Source of the DNA: Acidobacteriaceae bacterium | GTDB lineage: Bacteria > Acidobacteriota > Terriglobia > Terriglobales > Acidobacteriaceae | Direction of reading: 5' to 3' | Assembly: GCA_025355505.1 (NCBI GenBank) | Contig: JANXZM010000008.1 | Location: 1-37,780 of the forward strand | Length of the DNA stretch: 37,780 bases | In this document: piece by piece, positions 5,320 to 21,123 of the stretch | Layout of the letters: each line of letters begins with the position of its first letter | Position numbering within the stretch: position 1 is the first letter of the stretch | Notes under the pieces: model-generated | What the model saw: the letters and a program-made list of their open reading frames with translations, nothing else | Told to the model about the DNA's origin: nothing | Databases searched by the model: none | Translations under genes and position numbers: made by a program

Positions 5320-6537
5320 CTAGTGGCTGTACACAGTGGTCCGAGGGTTGTAGTTCTTCCAGTCAAACCAGTAGTCCTTCAAAAATTTGATTTTCTCCAG
5401 ACACTGGCCCGCTGCCGGGCCGCTCGTCGCGCATCCCGCAAAATTCCACGTGTTGCCTTGCGAATCGAGCAGCCGCCACTGCGGACTCTGCGCATCGCGG
5501 TAGAGTTCGATGTCCGATCCATTCCACTGCGAGCGGAACACGCGCACCGATTCGCCGTCGGGCCCGGTCACCAGCGCCACCGGAACGCCGCCAATCTTGT
5601 CCTCGACCAGGCTCTGTCCGCGCACCTTCGCCAAAGGAAAAGCCCGCGCTTGCCCGCCCATCTCCACTCCCAGAATCACCTCGCGATCCTTTAGTCCCTG
5701 TCCCGGAAAAGTCAGCGGCGCCGGATACTTCGCAACTTCTTTTTCCCACGCCTGGTCGTAATCTTTTTCGCGTCCGGCAACCGGCGCCAGCACCAACCCA
5801 TAGGGCGCCTCGGACTTCCACAAGGCGAACGTGAGCTCGTCAGTCGGCATCAATTCCAGCGCGCTGCCAGTCAGCTCGCCCGCGATCGCGTGTCCCGTGA
5901 CTTGCTGCCACCACGAGCCCGTCTCGCGATCGCGCATCAGAAAATTCTGATTGTTGATCCCCGCCAGATAGAAATGCAGCTCGCGTCCCCGCGCCGTTCT
6001 CTTCCACACCAGACCGGTGTGACAGAGCGTTCAATAGGTGACGACGATCGGTTCCTCCGCCACCGTGTCGTTCAGGATGTGATGGTAGGCCATCTGCACG
6101 ATCGGGTAAGCGCGCGCTTCCCGCCCGATCAGCACCGCCATCACCATTTCCTTGTCGCCGAGATGGGCATCGCTGGCCGAGACGAACCCCGCTGCCGTGA
6201 TGGGATGGAACATCCATTCCAAGTAATTCTGCCGGACCATCACCGCCGACGCCGCGCTCAGCACCAGCGCTGTCACGATGCCCGTCCGCAACCCTCGCGA
6301 CGAGCTCCGCCACAGACGCGCGCCCAGCGCCAGCACACCCACCAGGGCGGCTAATGCGAGTGCGGGCGCAATCCGCTTCACCGCGATCGCCAGCCCCAGC
6401 GCTCCCGCCGACTGGTGCTGGAATGGCCGGATGACAAACGCCGGAACCAGAAACAGGCTCAGCGAAAACAACGCCAGCAGCCCCAGCAGCAGCCATAGCC
6501 CACGATTCTCAGATCGATTCATCACCCGAAGATTCAT
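5320..6537 (-). CDS. Candidate DUF3179 selenoprotein, membrane-anchored
   Basis: 405 codons read through one in-frame TGA (6031-6033; residue 169). The N-terminus has three membrane helices (LWLLLGLLALFSLSLFLVPA; IAPALALAALVGVLALGARL; TGIVTALVLSAASAVMV). A DUF3179 domain follows: EARAYPIVQMAYHHILND, then EEPIVVTY-U-TLCHTGLVW, NNQNFLMRDRETGSWWQQVT, and a C-terminal DYWFDWKNYNPRTTVY. From memory, family members have VTYCxxC here, so UGA replaces the conserved Cys and gives UxxC (U169, C172). Both flanking parts stay in the same frame and have no other stop. A SECIS-like hairpin starts right after the UGA. The domain probably faces the periplasm. Function of DUF3179 is unknown; UxxC suggests redox or metal chemistry. 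The alternative is a nonsense-mutation pseudogene. ATG 6522 is a possible later start. Confidence 0.75.
5999..6033 (-). promoter_or_regulatory. Putative bacterial SECIS element after UGA
   Basis: Immediately 3' of the UGA (minus strand) the mRNA can fold into a 12-step helix with one G-A mismatch and one U-G pair: CUCUGUCACACC pairs with GGUGUGGAAGAG. It encloses the five-base loop GGUCU (6011-6015). The loop begins 16 bases after the UGA. As I recall, the Escherichia coli fdhF SECIS also has a GGUCU loop, about 18 bases after its UGA. The inner six pairs (CACACC/GGUGUG) are perfect Watson-Crick. A bulged U, as in fdhF, is not evident. Confidence 0.7.
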
Positions 6538-6600: not shown

Positions 6601-6630
6601 AACAAAAACCCCGATCCTCGCGGATCGGGG
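6601..6630 (-). terminator. Rho-independent terminator of the minor pilin operon
   Basis: CCCCGATCC (6609-6617) pairs perfectly with GGATCGGGG (6622-6630) around a four-base loop. On the minus strand it is followed by TTTTTGTT. It lies 54 bases past the pilX-like stop (6684) and before the DUF3179 start (6537), so it separates the pilin operon from the candidate selenoprotein gene. Confidence 0.85.
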
Positions 6631-6683
6631 TCAAGTGGCTTCGTTCACCAGTGCGTTTAGTTCGCGCGTGCCGTAAATATGGT

Positions 6684-8268: not shown

Positions 8269-9171
8269 TTAGTTATTCACCAGGCGAGCGTCCCCCACCA
8301 ATGTGGTCACTGGCCGGATCTTGGTCTTCAAATCAACGCCAGTGGTTGCGTTTGCCAGAAGATTGATAGTGAGGCGGATCGACTTAACACAAGATGCGGA
8401 ACTGGAGCTGCACGTCAGTATTGCCGTGCCACTTGCGCTGGTGATGTCCTGGGGCAGTGGGACGATGAGGCCGTACTGGTCATAGGCCTGAAAGACCGGA
8501 AAATCCTTGAAGCTGCTAATGGCTGCGTAGTACGAGGTATTGGTGGCCCCCCAGGCCGTATTCCCTGATATCGGCAACCCGCCTCCATAGGCCAAAGAGC
8601 CCCCAGGCACTCCGCTATTGACGACGTTCTGCAATTCCTGACTGAAAGTGGGTTGCTGCGAAAGGGGCAAGATTGAATTCACTTTCGGCGTCTGCGAGCG
8701 CTGGATGGTACAGGGGCAGGTTCCGGTGGGCGGGTAATTGCCGGCGGAATCCACCAGGCGATACCAGACTGTGTCGACAACGCCGTCACCCTCCACGTCA
8801 CCCTCGAAAACAATCTGGGTGTTGGAAACGGAAACCAAGCCAGCCGCCACGAGCGAACTACTCGCTTCGTTAGGATTGCTATAGTCCGCGGGACAGCTGT
8901 ACTTAGTACCCCCGATCACGGGGGTGACCATGCGGCAGTTGGGATATCCCGCCTGATGCAGGTCGCGCTCAAACTCATCCACGAACTCGCGCCCTTCCTG
9001 CGTTAGATCCACCTTGGTCTGCTCTGCCTGACTGCGTTGGGCGACGAGGTTGATCCCATTGAAAACAGACGCCAGCACGATCATCAGAAGTGCGCACACC
9101 ATGACGAGTTCGAGCAGCGAGAAGCCCGCTTGCGACGGAAGTGATCTTTGTCCAGGTGTCTTCATGTTCAT
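8269..9171 (-). CDS. PilW-like minor pilin
   Basis: 300 aa from ATG 9171; the in-frame TTG at 9192 overlaps the previous gene and is less likely. It carries a type III signal sequence: basic leader, SQAG-FSLLELVMVCALLMIVLA, with Gly before Phe as cleavage site and Glu at position 5 of the mature protein. The following helix (AEQTKVDLTQEGREFVDEFE, then RDLHQAGYPN) resembles PilW/PilJ pseudopilins. The body has strand-forming Ser/Thr/Asn-rich sequence. The gene lies 10 bases from the upstream pilV-like stop and 31 bases before pilX, consistent with co-transcription and assembly of a shared minor-pilin complex. Confidence 0.75.
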   Translation of the reverse strand: MNMKTPGQRSLPSQAGFSLLELVMVCALLMIVLASVFNGINLVAQRSQAEQTKVDLTQEGREFVDEFERDLHQAGYPNCRMVTPVIGGTKYSCPADYSNPNEASSSLVAAGLVSVSNTQIVFEGDVEGDGVVDTVWYRLVDSAGNYPPTGTCPCTIQRSQTPKVNSILPLSQQPTFSQELQNVVNSGVPGGSLAYGGGLPISGNTAWGATNTSYYAAISSFKDFPVFQAYDQYGLIVPLPQDITSASGTAILTCSSSSASCVKSIRLTINLLANATTGVDLKTKIRPVTTLVGDARLVNN

Positions 9172-9181
9172 ATCAATACGC

Positions 9182-9817
9182 TCAGTTTTCAATCAGAGTG
9201 CGTAGAGTCCCGGGGGGCGCAAAAAACATGCCAAGCGTGGACCCTTTTGCCACAGTTTCCCGCGACGAGACCGTCAGTAAGCTGATGCGGCTGCTCGGAT
9301 TTGGACTGACTTCCATAATGTTCCAGCGAACTTCATAAATGTCTCCGCTGCACGTCTGGTACTGCATGGCATAACCTTGGGTCGTGGAAGTTGCGAGAGT
9401 AGGAGTCGGTTGAGACCAGTCAATGTCTCCCGCGTTGTACCCTGCAGGTGCCGTCAATGTGGTATATAGGGTCGCGCCGTTTCCGCTCGGACCCGCCGCC
9501 TGAACCAGCAAGGCTTGGTGCTGATTCGCGCTCGCGCCGCTGAGGGCGCAGTCGTAAATAATGACATTTCCCGTTTTCGGATAATTCTTCAAAGTCGCGA
9601 ACATCTCCAGGATCTCTTGATCCAGAACGGTCGCCGTGTTATCCGTTTTGTTCCGCGAGTTCGATTCCATGCCGATTATGATCAGGACCATAGCCCCCAG
9701 CATTCCAACTGTGAGCACGGCCATGGCGATCATAAGTTCGAGCAGCGACATTCCGCTCTGACCGAGTCTCGCCCGGCGCCGGGCACTCCGCGATTGATTG
9801 TTTGGCAACTCAGACAT
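9182..9817 (-). CDS. PilV-like minor pilin
   Basis: 211 aa. The start at 9817 is chosen because GAGGGA lies 5 bases upstream and because the next residues form a short basic prepilin leader (SARRRARLGQSG) before MSLLELMIAMAVLTVGMLG. The Gly-Met junction and Glu at mature position 5 fit prepilin peptidase cleavage and N-methylation. A longer frame to 10000 is only overlap with the preceding gene. Mid and C-terminal parts are Thr/Ser-rich (for example GYAMQYQTCSGDIYEVRWNI). Matches PilV/GspI-type minor pilins. The start lies eight bases after the fimT-like stop. Confidence 0.75.
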   Translation of the reverse strand: MSELPNNQSRSARRRARLGQSGMSLLELMIAMAVLTVGMLGAMVLIIIGMESNSRNKTDNTATVLDQEILEMFATLKNYPKTGNVIIYDCALSGASANQHQALLVQAAGPSGNGATLYTTLTAPAGYNAGDIDWSQPTPTLATSTTQGYAMQYQTCSGDIYEVRWNIMEVSPNPSSRISLLTVSSRETVAKGSTLGMFFAPPGTLRTLIEN

Positions 9818-9825
9818 TTTGTCCC

Positions 9826-10446
9826 TCAATCCCGCTGTATCCAATTCCCACTGCCGTCGCTGGTCCAAATCTGCATGTGTCCGCTCGGGGTGATGATGAC
9901 CGAAGCCCAAGAGATATTTCCCGTAACGGAGGAGTTCGACAGAAAGACGACGAAGCCCATACCGGGATTTTGTGGGCAGGCGCCCGCGGCCGCAACACAA
10001 GGAAGTCCGCGCGCATTGAAGCTCGGGTCGCTCGCCCCCGCATTGAAGGTGCAGCTCGGGCCGCAGGTAAGGGTCCCTTCGTTGGTAGCGCCGCTGCCGG
10101 TTCCGGGGTGGACGGTTATCCGGTTGCCCAGGGGTAGGAGCGGATCGCCGGCGGTGTACGCCGCGCCTTGAAAATGGACATAGTATCCACTGCCGCCCGA
10201 AGGCAATGTGGTCGATTGGAGCGTGTAGTAGGTGTTTTTTCGGACCGCTTGCATGCGAGCCGACTGCAAAAGGCCGCTGTAGTTCGTCGCAAAATATCGC
10301 AGATTGATGTCGCTGACAGTGTTCAACAAGCGAGGCACGGAAATCGATGCCACAATCATGATGATGGCGACGACGATCACCAATTCAAGCAAGGAAAAGC
10401 CCTGACCTTTCTTCTCTTTCTGCTTCGATGTCGTGGAATGCAGCAT
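9826..10446 (-). CDS. FimT/GspH-like pseudopilin
   Basis: 206 aa. Leader MLHSTTSKQKEKKGQG is followed by FSLLELVIVVAIIMIVASIS, a textbook prepilin cleavage site and assembly helix with Glu5. The next stretch, VPRLLNTVSDINLRYFATNY then SGLLQSARMQAVRKNTYYTL, matches GspH/FimT pseudopilins. The C-terminal globular part has four Cys that could pair (LTCGPSC; LPCVAAAGAC). First gene of the minor-pilin operon, followed closely by pilV-, pilW- and pilX-like genes. No major pilin, PilY1 or assembly ATPase is in the window, so these must be encoded elsewhere. Confidence 0.75.
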   Translation of the reverse strand: MLHSTTSKQKEKKGQGFSLLELVIVVAIIMIVASISVPRLLNTVSDINLRYFATNYSGLLQSARMQAVRKNTYYTLQSTTLPSGGSGYYVHFQGAAYTAGDPLLPLGNRITVHPGTGSGATNEGTLTCGPSCTFNAGASDPSFNARGLPCVAAAGACPQNPGMGFVVFLSNSSVTGNISWASVIITPSGHMQIWTSDGSGNWIQRD

Positions 10447-18320: not shown

Positions 18321-20834
18321 ATGCGCCACTTTTTGTCACACCAAGTTCGGGAAACCCAATCCGGTGCGTCTTTCCGGTCCGTGTCCAGCTCAACGCCCAA
18401 TTTGACGCCCGCCCGCAATCTTGGCGTGACTCTGCTCGTCGTTTGCATTGCGTTGCTGTCGTCCTCGTTCGCGCAGCAGTCCTTTTTGACCAACCGGGGT
18501 GATAACGCCCGCAGCGGAGCCAATACCAATGAAACTCTGCTCACCCCCGCCAACGTCAGCAAAAACAGCTTCGGTAAGCTCTTCAGCTCTCCCGTCGACT
18601 ATGTCGCGATGGCCCAGCCCCTCTACGTGCCCAGCGTGAACATACCCGGCCAGGGCATACACAACGTCGTTTACGTTGTCACCCAGGCGGATTCGGTTTA
18701 CGCCATTGACGCCGACAACGGCGCCCAGCTCTGGTACGCCAGCATGCTCAACGGTGGCACCACCGCCAGCGGCACCTATCTTCCCTGCGGCACCGCTGCC
18801 GGTTTTAATCAGGAAGGCATTGTCGGAACCCCTGTCATCGATCCCAATACCAACACCATATATCTGGTCGCCAAGACTCTTCTCAACACCACTGTCCGTC
18901 ACCATCTTCACGCCCTCGACATCACCACCGGCAATGAGCAACCGGGCAGCCCAGTGTTGATCCAAGCCCAGAGCACCAGCAATAAGGGACACGTGATGAC
19001 CTTCAACAGCCTCCACCAGAAAAACCGTCCCGGCCTGTTGCTGCTCAACGGTACGCTTTACCTGGGCTTCGGCTCGAACTACTGCAACGACAGCAACAGC
19101 GGCTGGGTTCTGTCCTACGACGCTGCCACTCTGTCCCAAGTAGGTGTCTTCAATGATTCGCCCGACTACGGAGTCACTTCGATTTGGCAGAGCGGCAACG
19201 GCCTCGCTGCCGATGAAGCCGGCAATATTTTTACTGAAACATCTGAAAGCGGCTCCCACGGCTACGATGTCCCAACCGGTGGCCAGACCTACTGCATGAG
19301 CGTCTTGAAGCTTTCCCCCACGCTCACGCTTGCCGATTATTTCACCCCGTGGAACGTGGCCTTCCTCAACTCCCACGATCTTGATCTCAGTTCCGCCGGC
19401 CCCATCGTCCTCCCCGATCAAAATGGCCCCTACCCCCACGAACTCATCGCCAGCGGCAAGTATGGCGCAGTTTACGTTCTCAATCGCGACAACCTGGGGA
19501 TGTACTCCGTAGGGGTAGATAGTCAGATCATCCAGGAAGTCAATCTCGTTCAGCCGAGCGATCCTCCCCTGGACGTAATGATGAGTTCCCCGGCCTACTG
19601 GAACAACACCGTGTACTTCACGCCCAACAGCGCGCCGCTCATGGCGTACCCGTTGAACGGCGGATTGCTCGGCACTCCTCTCACCGTTGGGAAATACGCC
19701 GGCGGCCACTCCGCATCCATTTCCGCCAATGGCAACAGCAACGGGATTCTGTGGGTCATCAGCGGTCCACAACTCCTCGCCTTTGACGCCGTCTCTCTCA
19801 AACTGCTCTACGGCACCAATCAGGCTCTCCTTGGGCGCGACAAGTTGCCCGCCGTCGGCCATTTTTCCACTCAGACCGTCATCAACGGCAAGGTGTTCGT
19901 CGCCACCCGGAATAGTCTTGAAGCTTACGGACTGTTCCACATCGCCAGCATCACTGGAGGCAGCGCCCAGACTGGGACCGTGAATACCACCCTGCCCGTT
20001 CCCGTCCAGGTCAATATCGCCAACCCCTACAACGGACAACCCGACGTCGGTGCCACCGTCAACTTCAGTGATGGCGGCAAGGGCGGCGCATTCAATCCCC
20101 CCTCCGCCGTGACCGACTCCAACGGCAACGTCTCCACGACTTATACCGTTCCCCAAAAAGCTGGCACCTACACCCTGACAATCTCCGGGAACGGCTTCGG
20201 CAATGTCACTACCACCGCCACCGCTACGCCCGCCGCCCCCATTAAGATCGTTGCCTACGGCGGAGCGAAGCAGACCGGCACCGCCGGTTCCAACCTTGCC
20301 AACTCCGTCGTCGCCCAGGCTCAGGACATCTACAAGAACGGCATCGCCGGCGTCACCGTCAACTTTGCCGCCAACAAGGGTGCCATTCCCAATCCGTCTT
20401 CCGTGGTCACCGACGCCACTGGCTTGGCTCGGAGCACTCTGCAGTTGCCCACCACGGCCGCCACCATTACTGTCACCGCCAGTTCCGCCGGCTTCAAGAA
20501 CATCACCTACCCCGAGTACGCCGTTGCCGGACCCGCCGCCAATGTCGCCATCACCAGCGGCAATAATCAGTCCGCTCCTGCCGGAACGCAATTGCCCCAG
20601 TCCCTCACCGTGCTCGTGACCGACCAGTACGGTAATCCCGTTGCTGCCGTCAACGTTGGCTTTGACGACGGTGGCTCCGGAGGCGTTTTCTTCAACTCCA
20701 ATCCCTTCGCCACCAACAACGCTGGAACCGCAACCCAGTTCTATACGCTCCCTGCAACCCCCGGTGTCGTCACCATCAACGCCACCGTCACCGGAGTAGC
20801 GAACCCCGCTGTCTTCTCCGAAACCGGCCAGTAG
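18321..20834 (+). CDS. Secreted PQQ-propeller and invasin-Ig repeat protein
   Basis: 837 aa, exported: a long basic N-terminus and helix LGVTLLVVCIALLSSSFAQQ. Residues about 55-540 hold a PQQ-like beta-propeller (VVYVVTQADSVYAIDADNGA; GKYGAVYVLNRDNLGMYSVG). Three Ig-like repeats of the bacterial Big_1/invasin type follow, each with the pattern GATVNFSDGGKGGAF or AVNVGFDDGGSGGVF and a following GTATQFYTLP-type strand. Likely a surface or periplasmic adhesion or binding protein with no obvious catalytic site. Start ATG 18321 has GGAGG (18305-18309) at slightly long spacing. Single gene. Confidence 0.75.
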   Translation: MRHFLSHQVRETQSGASFRSVSSSTPNLTPARNLGVTLLVVCIALLSSSFAQQSFLTNRGDNARSGANTNETLLTPANVSKNSFGKLFSSPVDYVAMAQPLYVPSVNIPGQGIHNVVYVVTQADSVYAIDADNGAQLWYASMLNGGTTASGTYLPCGTAAGFNQEGIVGTPVIDPNTNTIYLVAKTLLNTTVRHHLHALDITTGNEQPGSPVLIQAQSTSNKGHVMTFNSLHQKNRPGLLLLNGTLYLGFGSNYCNDSNSGWVLSYDAATLSQVGVFNDSPDYGVTSIWQSGNGLAADEAGNIFTETSESGSHGYDVPTGGQTYCMSVLKLSPTLTLADYFTPWNVAFLNSHDLDLSSAGPIVLPDQNGPYPHELIASGKYGAVYVLNRDNLGMYSVGVDSQIIQEVNLVQPSDPPLDVMMSSPAYWNNTVYFTPNSAPLMAYPLNGGLLGTPLTVGKYAGGHSASISANGNSNGILWVISGPQLLAFDAVSLKLLYGTNQALLGRDKLPAVGHFSTQTVINGKVFVATRNSLEAYGLFHIASITGGSAQTGTVNTTLPVPVQVNIANPYNGQPDVGATVNFSDGGKGGAFNPPSAVTDSNGNVSTTYTVPQKAGTYTLTISGNGFGNVTTTATATPAAPIKIVAYGGAKQTGTAGSNLANSVVAQAQDIYKNGIAGVTVNFAANKGAIPNPSSVVTDATGLARSTLQLPTTAATITVTASSAGFKNITYPEYAVAGPAANVAITSGNNQSAPAGTQLPQSLTVLVTDQYGNPVAAVNVGFDDGGSGGVFFNSNPFATNNAGTATQFYTLPATPGVVTINATVTGVANPAVFSETGQ

Positions 20835-20842
20835 GCAAGCAT

Positions 20843-20868
20843 GTGTGGCGCGGGCGCCCCCGCCCGCG
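20843..20868. repeat. GTGTGG-led palindromic repeat, copy 1
   Basis: GTGTGG precedes an 8-bp hairpin, CGCGGGCG (20849-20856) / CGCCCGCG (20861-20868), with a four-base loop. The same design occurs at 23506. It lies just past the stop at 20834 in a 289-bp gap holding no supported gene. Confidence 0.6.
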
Positions 20869-21123
20869 TACCTCTGCGCCAATTCCTCCGTCAGCCCCCG
20901 AAGCCGATCTCACGGCGCCCGTGATCCCCGTGTCCTCTGTGGTTAGCCTTCGCGCTCCGCCACCAAACAAAAAACGCAGATTCCTCCGCGCCCCAAATTA
21001 CAAAATTACTCAATTACCCATTTGCGTAATCTCTCCCGCCTAATTGACTTCCCACTCATTTCGCGGGAAACTCGCCTCTGAGCCTGCTTGCCACCGCATC
21101 ACCGCAGGCTGCCGGAACAAACT

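Follow-up and report, generated by a model that had tools for sequence, protein, structure and literature searches.

Members of the DUF3179 family (Pfam PF11376) already stand among the prokaryotic selenoproteins in excerpts of PMC9312934, where the entry carries a UxxC/T motif and is credited to a 2007 paper on an Olavius symbiont, and excerpts of PMC13188914 give the same entry (PF11376, UxxC/T) under "Predicted with high confidence". These two lists overturn the statement, made in a preliminary description of the locus studied here, that no DUF3179 selenoprotein had been described. The family is also a table entry in the excerpt of one genome paper, and excerpts of PMC1794560 report 4 acidobacterial selenoproteins of 3 families. 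The string "acidobacteri" has zero occurrences in PMC9312934 and PMC13188914, and no DUF3179 report is found among the matches listed for papers on acidobacterial selenoproteins, a set that covers few subscription papers. The gene described below lies in a window of 37,780 nucleotides, the whole stretch of Acidobacteriaceae DNA that we analyzed, and shares with the listed entries the Pfam family and a very likely selenocysteine (Sec) in a UxxC/T motif. Its differences from these entries, as far as the excerpts of PMC9312934 and PMC13188914 go, are the spread across Acidobacteriota, a candidate SECIS with two registers, UxxA and UxxV forms, a division of Sec and Cys forms by selB, and the fold, none of which is found there. 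Because the family is already listed, we regard the window gene as a well-supported acidobacterial member with some fresh detail; the additions made here are the Acidobacteriota spread, the candidate SECIS, and the Sec genes whose partner residue is Ala or Val. For comparison, the Cys-form DUF3179 proteins of Edaphobacter lichenicola (L132, L137, L140, and L147) are 46-48% identical over the domain and have CTLC in the Sec column, with a TGC codon and no GGUCU pentaloop, unlike the window gene.

The gene occupies positions 5320-6537 of the minus strand (the preliminary description gave no strand), with an ATG start at 6537, a second ATG five codons inside as an alternative start, and, when the frame is translated with TGA as Sec, 405 codons followed by a TAG stop codon at 5322-5320. 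Translation bears out the earlier observation of a lone TGA at VVTY-U-TLCHTG in an otherwise intact gene: it is codon 169 (6031-6033, minus strand), occupies the Cys column of the family, and is the only stop across 405 residues. Under the standard code, the gene is cut into two open reading frames, 6031-6537 (168 aa) and 5320-6009 (229 aa), and is thus easily misannotated. The Pfam DUF3179 match spans the TGA (residues 113-400, E 1e-62) and scores 212.7 bits against a gathering cut-off of 27, while no NCBIfam model matched the product; within its own genome, this is the one copy that a search for DUF3179 detected. From the comparisons that follow, the UGA of the window gene is very likely to encode selenocysteine, an assignment roughly as firm as purely comparative evidence permits, and we hold with high confidence the account of a genuine selenoprotein gene with Sec at UGA169, a predicted membrane anchor, and a probable redox role.

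Ahead of the domain, three hydrophobic segments (6235-6504, minus strand; residues about 12-39, 46-77, and 83-101) are probably membrane-spanning by Kyte-Doolittle hydropathy only, so that the product would be membrane-anchored and would expose the DUF3179 domain on the extracytoplasmic side, in agreement with the placement proposed earlier. The domain itself (5338-6201, minus strand; residues 113-400) is an internal duplication of two homologous halves (hhalign probability 99.8, E 1.8e-28) with the Sec in the first. For modelling, 19 of 80 loci from named genomes were excluded because of their length, an unknown residue, or another TGA in the stretch; of the 61 that were left, 48 entered the alignment (47 for the half), with Sec modelled as Cys; AlphaFold2 gave a pLDDT of 93.4 and pTM of 0.90 for the domain, and 93.0 and 0.87 for the first half alone. 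Foldseek against the PDB returned no match at E <=0.001 for either. The best E-value for the whole domain was that of RseB (0.012, probability 0.09), followed by Rieske entries from E 0.015 (5cxm with E 0.016 and probability 1.00), and the first half reached a best E of 0.024 with probability 1.00; among the 50 matches listed for it, all those with a probability of at least 0.9 were Rieske proteins or nitrite-reductase small subunits. The Sec-bearing half is most like Rieske ferredoxins and the small subunits of nitrite reductases (5cxm, 5bok, and 3c0d), with TM-scores by target of 0.56-0.62. At the sequence level, the C-terminal half reached 34.0 with a profile built from 30 Rieske proteins of relatives, compared to at most 16.0 for 40 permuted controls (1 reversed and 39 shuffled), whereas the N-terminal half, at 16.8 against a control maximum of 17.5, did not rise above controls; the corresponding hhalign Rieske probabilities were 53 (whole), 78.5 (C-terminal half), and 1.0 (N-terminal half). 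Rieske proteins bind their cluster through C-x-H and C-x2-H ligands, but by eye no such pair stands among the conserved columns of DUF3179. Together, this resemblance of the halves to a Rieske fold without its ligands is suggestive, and the domain may be a duplicated beta fold akin to Rieske/NirD domains. No solved structure related to DUF3179 by sequence was found. Foldseek also matched the DUF3179 model to an uncharacterized giant-virus protein, BFVD A0A1V0SD44 of Indivirus ILV1, with an E of 3.6e-6 and a TM-score by target of 0.53, and the viral contigs searched held no DUF3179 relative.

What the selenocysteine would do in this fold is the point on which an alternative survives best. We infer an extracytoplasmic thiol/selenol redox role: the Sec or Cys of the first half would most likely make the protein a redox enzyme or reductant acting on an extracytoplasmic substrate. 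A minority possibility, unlikely and still to be taken seriously, is that Sec is inserted and that this Sec/Cys serves as a metal ligand or structural residue instead of belonging to a redox enzyme, as the Rieske-like fold, the conservation of His at columns 53, 54, and 74 of the domain model, and a Sec without a fixed partner might suggest. Against this stand the missing Rieske ligand set and the fact that Sec is costly to make and usually marks a catalytic nucleophile. In the profile alignment, the Rieske ligands miss the Sec column, so that plain conversion of a cluster ligand does not account for the Sec. The partner residue itself had been read as part of a UxxC redox motif. Position +3 after the Sec is Cys in the window's kin, that is, in all 29 Sec genes of the order set and all 69 of the named-genome set, but the motif is weakened by the distant Sec genes of the phylum, 6/9 of which (L159, L161, L170, L172, L176, and L180) lack the second Cys and have Ala (in 4), Val (in 1), or Thr (in 1) instead. 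Since some Sec genes encode Ala or Val in the partner's place, UxxC is not essential family-wide. Three other loci (L034, L037, and L040) form a second Sec DUF3179 subfamily with the motif TWUSYC, and genome G007 carries both kinds. The window's own subfamily has two nearly invariant Cys near the C terminus (columns 270 and 280), between which a disulfide would be speculation. Binding of a c-type cytochrome heme through C-x2-C-H was considered and rejected because the His varies (N, G, or Y in relatives); the Sec would take the place of the first Cys there.

UGA means stop by default, and codons 1-168 make up a complete open reading frame containing the three hydrophobic segments, so the gene might be a pseudogene or end at 168 residues by design. 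We consider such a true stop very improbable: the frame stays open for 236 more codons, which hold the bulk of the Pfam domain, and the codon differences in this part are mostly synonymous, in line with the more than 220 conserved codons noted before. Synonymous differences exceed nonsynonymous ones 3' of the TGA in 4/4 close relatives (L071-L074), and this excess is stronger after the TGA than before; compared to L071, the window gene shows 57 synonymous to 24 nonsynonymous differences after the TGA and 22 to 29 before it.

A true stop is further contradicted by the recurrence of TGA at the identical column in many species. In the order, PF11376 matches 48 of 200 genomes at 49 loci, 47 of which span the Sec/Cys column (2/49 are fragments that lack it and were left out of the count), with TGA in 29/47 and TGC in 18/47; 28 genomes hold the 29 one-TGA genes and 18 genomes have TGC, and the remaining matches are a fragment without the column in G160 and a weak match in G052. 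TGA is the only in-frame stop reported within a match in this order table. The best 80 of 104 relatives from named genomes (79 acidobacterial and 1 labelled only "bacterium"), a set that partly overlaps with that of the order, divide into 69 with TGA and 11 with TGC, and a search of the phylum matched 133/396 genomes, whose 30 best-scoring loci comprise 9 with TGA and 21 with TGC or TGT. Cys also occupies this column in Thiothrix, Deinococcus, and the haloarchaea Haloferax and Haloarcula. Both expectations raised earlier, namely that the UGA falls on the family's Cys column and that other acidobacterial homologs share it, are thereby borne out, the homolog alignments having either TGA or a Cys codon at this place. 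In a midpoint-rooted tree of 127 sequences, from which 1 was dropped for its short length and 10 as identical duplicates, a single branch separates the 28 Cys rows, all on its one side, from Sec rows on the other; a single Sec-to-Cys switch in DUF3179 is only suggested by this, in view of the weak branch support (88/42) and the midpoint rooting.

The genome that carries the gene has the machinery for selenocysteine. Its draft assembly (4.16 Mb, 119 contigs, 96% complete) holds selA, selB, selC, and selD, the four genes whose presence had been named as a check: SelA scores 540 bits (cut-off 268), SelB 387 bits (cut-off 242), SelD 360 bits when joined (cut-off 125), and the tRNA-Sec 69.7 bits with the anticodon tca according to ARAGORN. 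The tRNA-Sec model also cross-matches other tRNAs, such that the second match in the same genome, at 47.2 bits, is a tRNA-Ser. SelB and the Sec-tRNA would thus read UGA169 as selenocysteine. The selD gene of this genome (L018, C57:28311-29327) has an in-frame TGA of its own at GUASK, and its product looks like a selenoprotein too; SelD is among the selenoproteins tabulated in excerpts of PMC13188914, and such forms are known.

Across the order, selB was found in 87/200 genomes, and its presence follows the codon closely: 28/28 TGA genomes have it compared to 1/18 Cys genomes (Fisher p 1e-11, uncorrected for kinship), 17/18 of the latter lacking it. The single Cys-form genome with selB, G156 (L036), has a tRNA-Sec as well. 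With stricter filters, a tRNA-Sec of at least 63 bits was found in 24/28 TGA genomes. The remaining four (G015, G025, G101, and G117, all TGA-form and selB-positive) yielded no tRNA-Sec; a deeper search of them reached at most 49.6 bits, and the top match in each was a tRNA-Ser or tRNA-Leu. Assembly gaps may be the cause, with two of these genomes at 75 and 89% completeness, but the absence stays a loose end because the other two are 97 and 100% complete. These 4/28 genomes, and a frame that would be open under any reading of TGA as sense, are what speaks for decoding as another amino acid through a changed code or a suppressor tRNA. We deem this highly improbable, even more so than a true stop, in view of the Cys at this column in relatives and of the tca-anticodon tRNA-Sec, SelA, SelB, and SelD of the own genome.

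Directly 3' of the UGA, the transcript can form a SECIS-like hairpin (5999-6027, minus strand) that would direct Sec insertion. It consists of a 7-bp upper stem, which pairs nucleotides 12-18 with 24-30 as numbered from the T of TGA, an apical GGUCU pentaloop (6011-6015, minus strand), a 1x1 internal loop, and a 4-bp lower stem, and folds with -15.2 kcal/mol for 39 nt. We take its loop to resemble that of the E. coli fdhF SECIS. Set against shuffled sequences, the fold is weak evidence by itself (z -1.73, with 12/200 shuffles folding equally well), and Rfam gave no match above its cut-offs for the hairpin; when this stretch of the window was recoded synonymously 5000 times, 81 versions were at least as stable and 191 had the pentaloop. 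Among homologs, the GGUCU pentaloop occurs in 26/29 Sec genes of the order set and 67/69 of the named-genome set but in 0/18 and 0/11 Cys genes, respectively. Furthermore, codons +4 (CAC), +6 (GGT), and +8 (GTG) are invariant, at synonymous sites, in 26/26 main-subfamily Sec genes, and codons +5 and +7 each deviate in a single gene, L046 in both cases; in the 18 Cys genes, which encode a nearly identical peptide, the codons of the hairpin region vary (GGT in 1/18). The weakest alternative, a TGC read as TGA through a sequencing or assembly error, would suit a draft assembly of 119 contigs and is extremely improbable against a TGA that repeats in other genomes (29/47, 69/80, and 9/30 loci), with a linked hairpin absent from every TGC gene tested.

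According to excerpts of PMC13188914, bacterial SECIS elements have 16-37 nt between the UGA and the loop, and a subset of them fails the model of this review; the 15 nt in the window are one under that range. The spacing is 20 nt in nine distant Sec genes and in L095 and L106, the two pentaloop exceptions of the named-genome set, which have a 7-bp GGUCU stem 5 nt further downstream. In both L095 and L106 (6196-6234 in each), the Sec-flanking peptide equals that of the window, and the stem sits in the register of the distant genes. This second register (17-23 with 29-35) is paired in 63/63 cells of the nine distant genes, with two-sided changes in 10 cells and 4/7 pairs, and slid versions of the stem pair 20.6 to 50.8% of cells. 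No shuffle out of 500 reached its paired cells, two-sided cells, or covariation score; the number of two-sided pairs and the pair types, both weaker measures, were reached by 4/500 and 36/500. Because the nine genes are relatives and the stem was derived from their own rows, the shuffle test favors a stem kept by compensatory changes somewhat. It belongs to the minimum-energy fold of 6/9 genes, with L163, L170, and L180 folding differently. The USYC genes L034, L037, and L040 do not fit the second register (1/7 pairs each), and a candidate version of the hairpin with a 7-nt loop can be seen in them by eye. That the SECIS shifted from one register to another (15 or 20 nt after the UGA) with the loop kept is a tentative proposal. 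It is one element of a joint reading that we put forward as possible and would not expect to hold in full: a duplicated, ligand-less Rieske-type fold with a lone Sec/Cys nucleophile and a dispensable partner, making up an extracytoplasmic selenoenzyme that is widespread in soil Acidobacteriota and has two SECIS registers.

The gene neighborhood, compared across the 80 named-genome loci and the window, gave no pointer to the function of DUF3179. Clustering of open reading frames of at least 120 aa from these loci and from the window's first 13 kb revealed a convergent SnoaL-like gene in 19 loci and a TonB_C gene in 17 (window counted). Two upstream families on the same strand, averaging 913 and 376 aa, recurred in 20 and 18 loci, respectively. 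The window has three prepilin-type N_methyl genes (8272-10446, minus strand) upstream of its DUF3179 gene, and these pseudopilin-like genes stayed outside both upstream families at the clustering cut-off. A weak terminator-like hairpin (6607-6632, minus strand) between the upstream gene and the DUF3179 gene suggests separate transcripts; the stretch that was scanned contains 2 sites of this kind compared to 1.5 expected in shuffles. Elsewhere in the window, two opposite-strand open reading frames of more than 800 codons each overlap (18321-20834, plus strand, and 18390-20882, minus strand).

For the family as a whole, the Sec forms in genomes with selB and the Cys forms in Edaphobacter-like genomes constitute a natural set for asking what selenocysteine buys, and this comparison covers an uncharacterized, probably extracytoplasmic family. 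Should the duplicated Rieske-like fold hold up, it would provide a structural handle on DUF3179.
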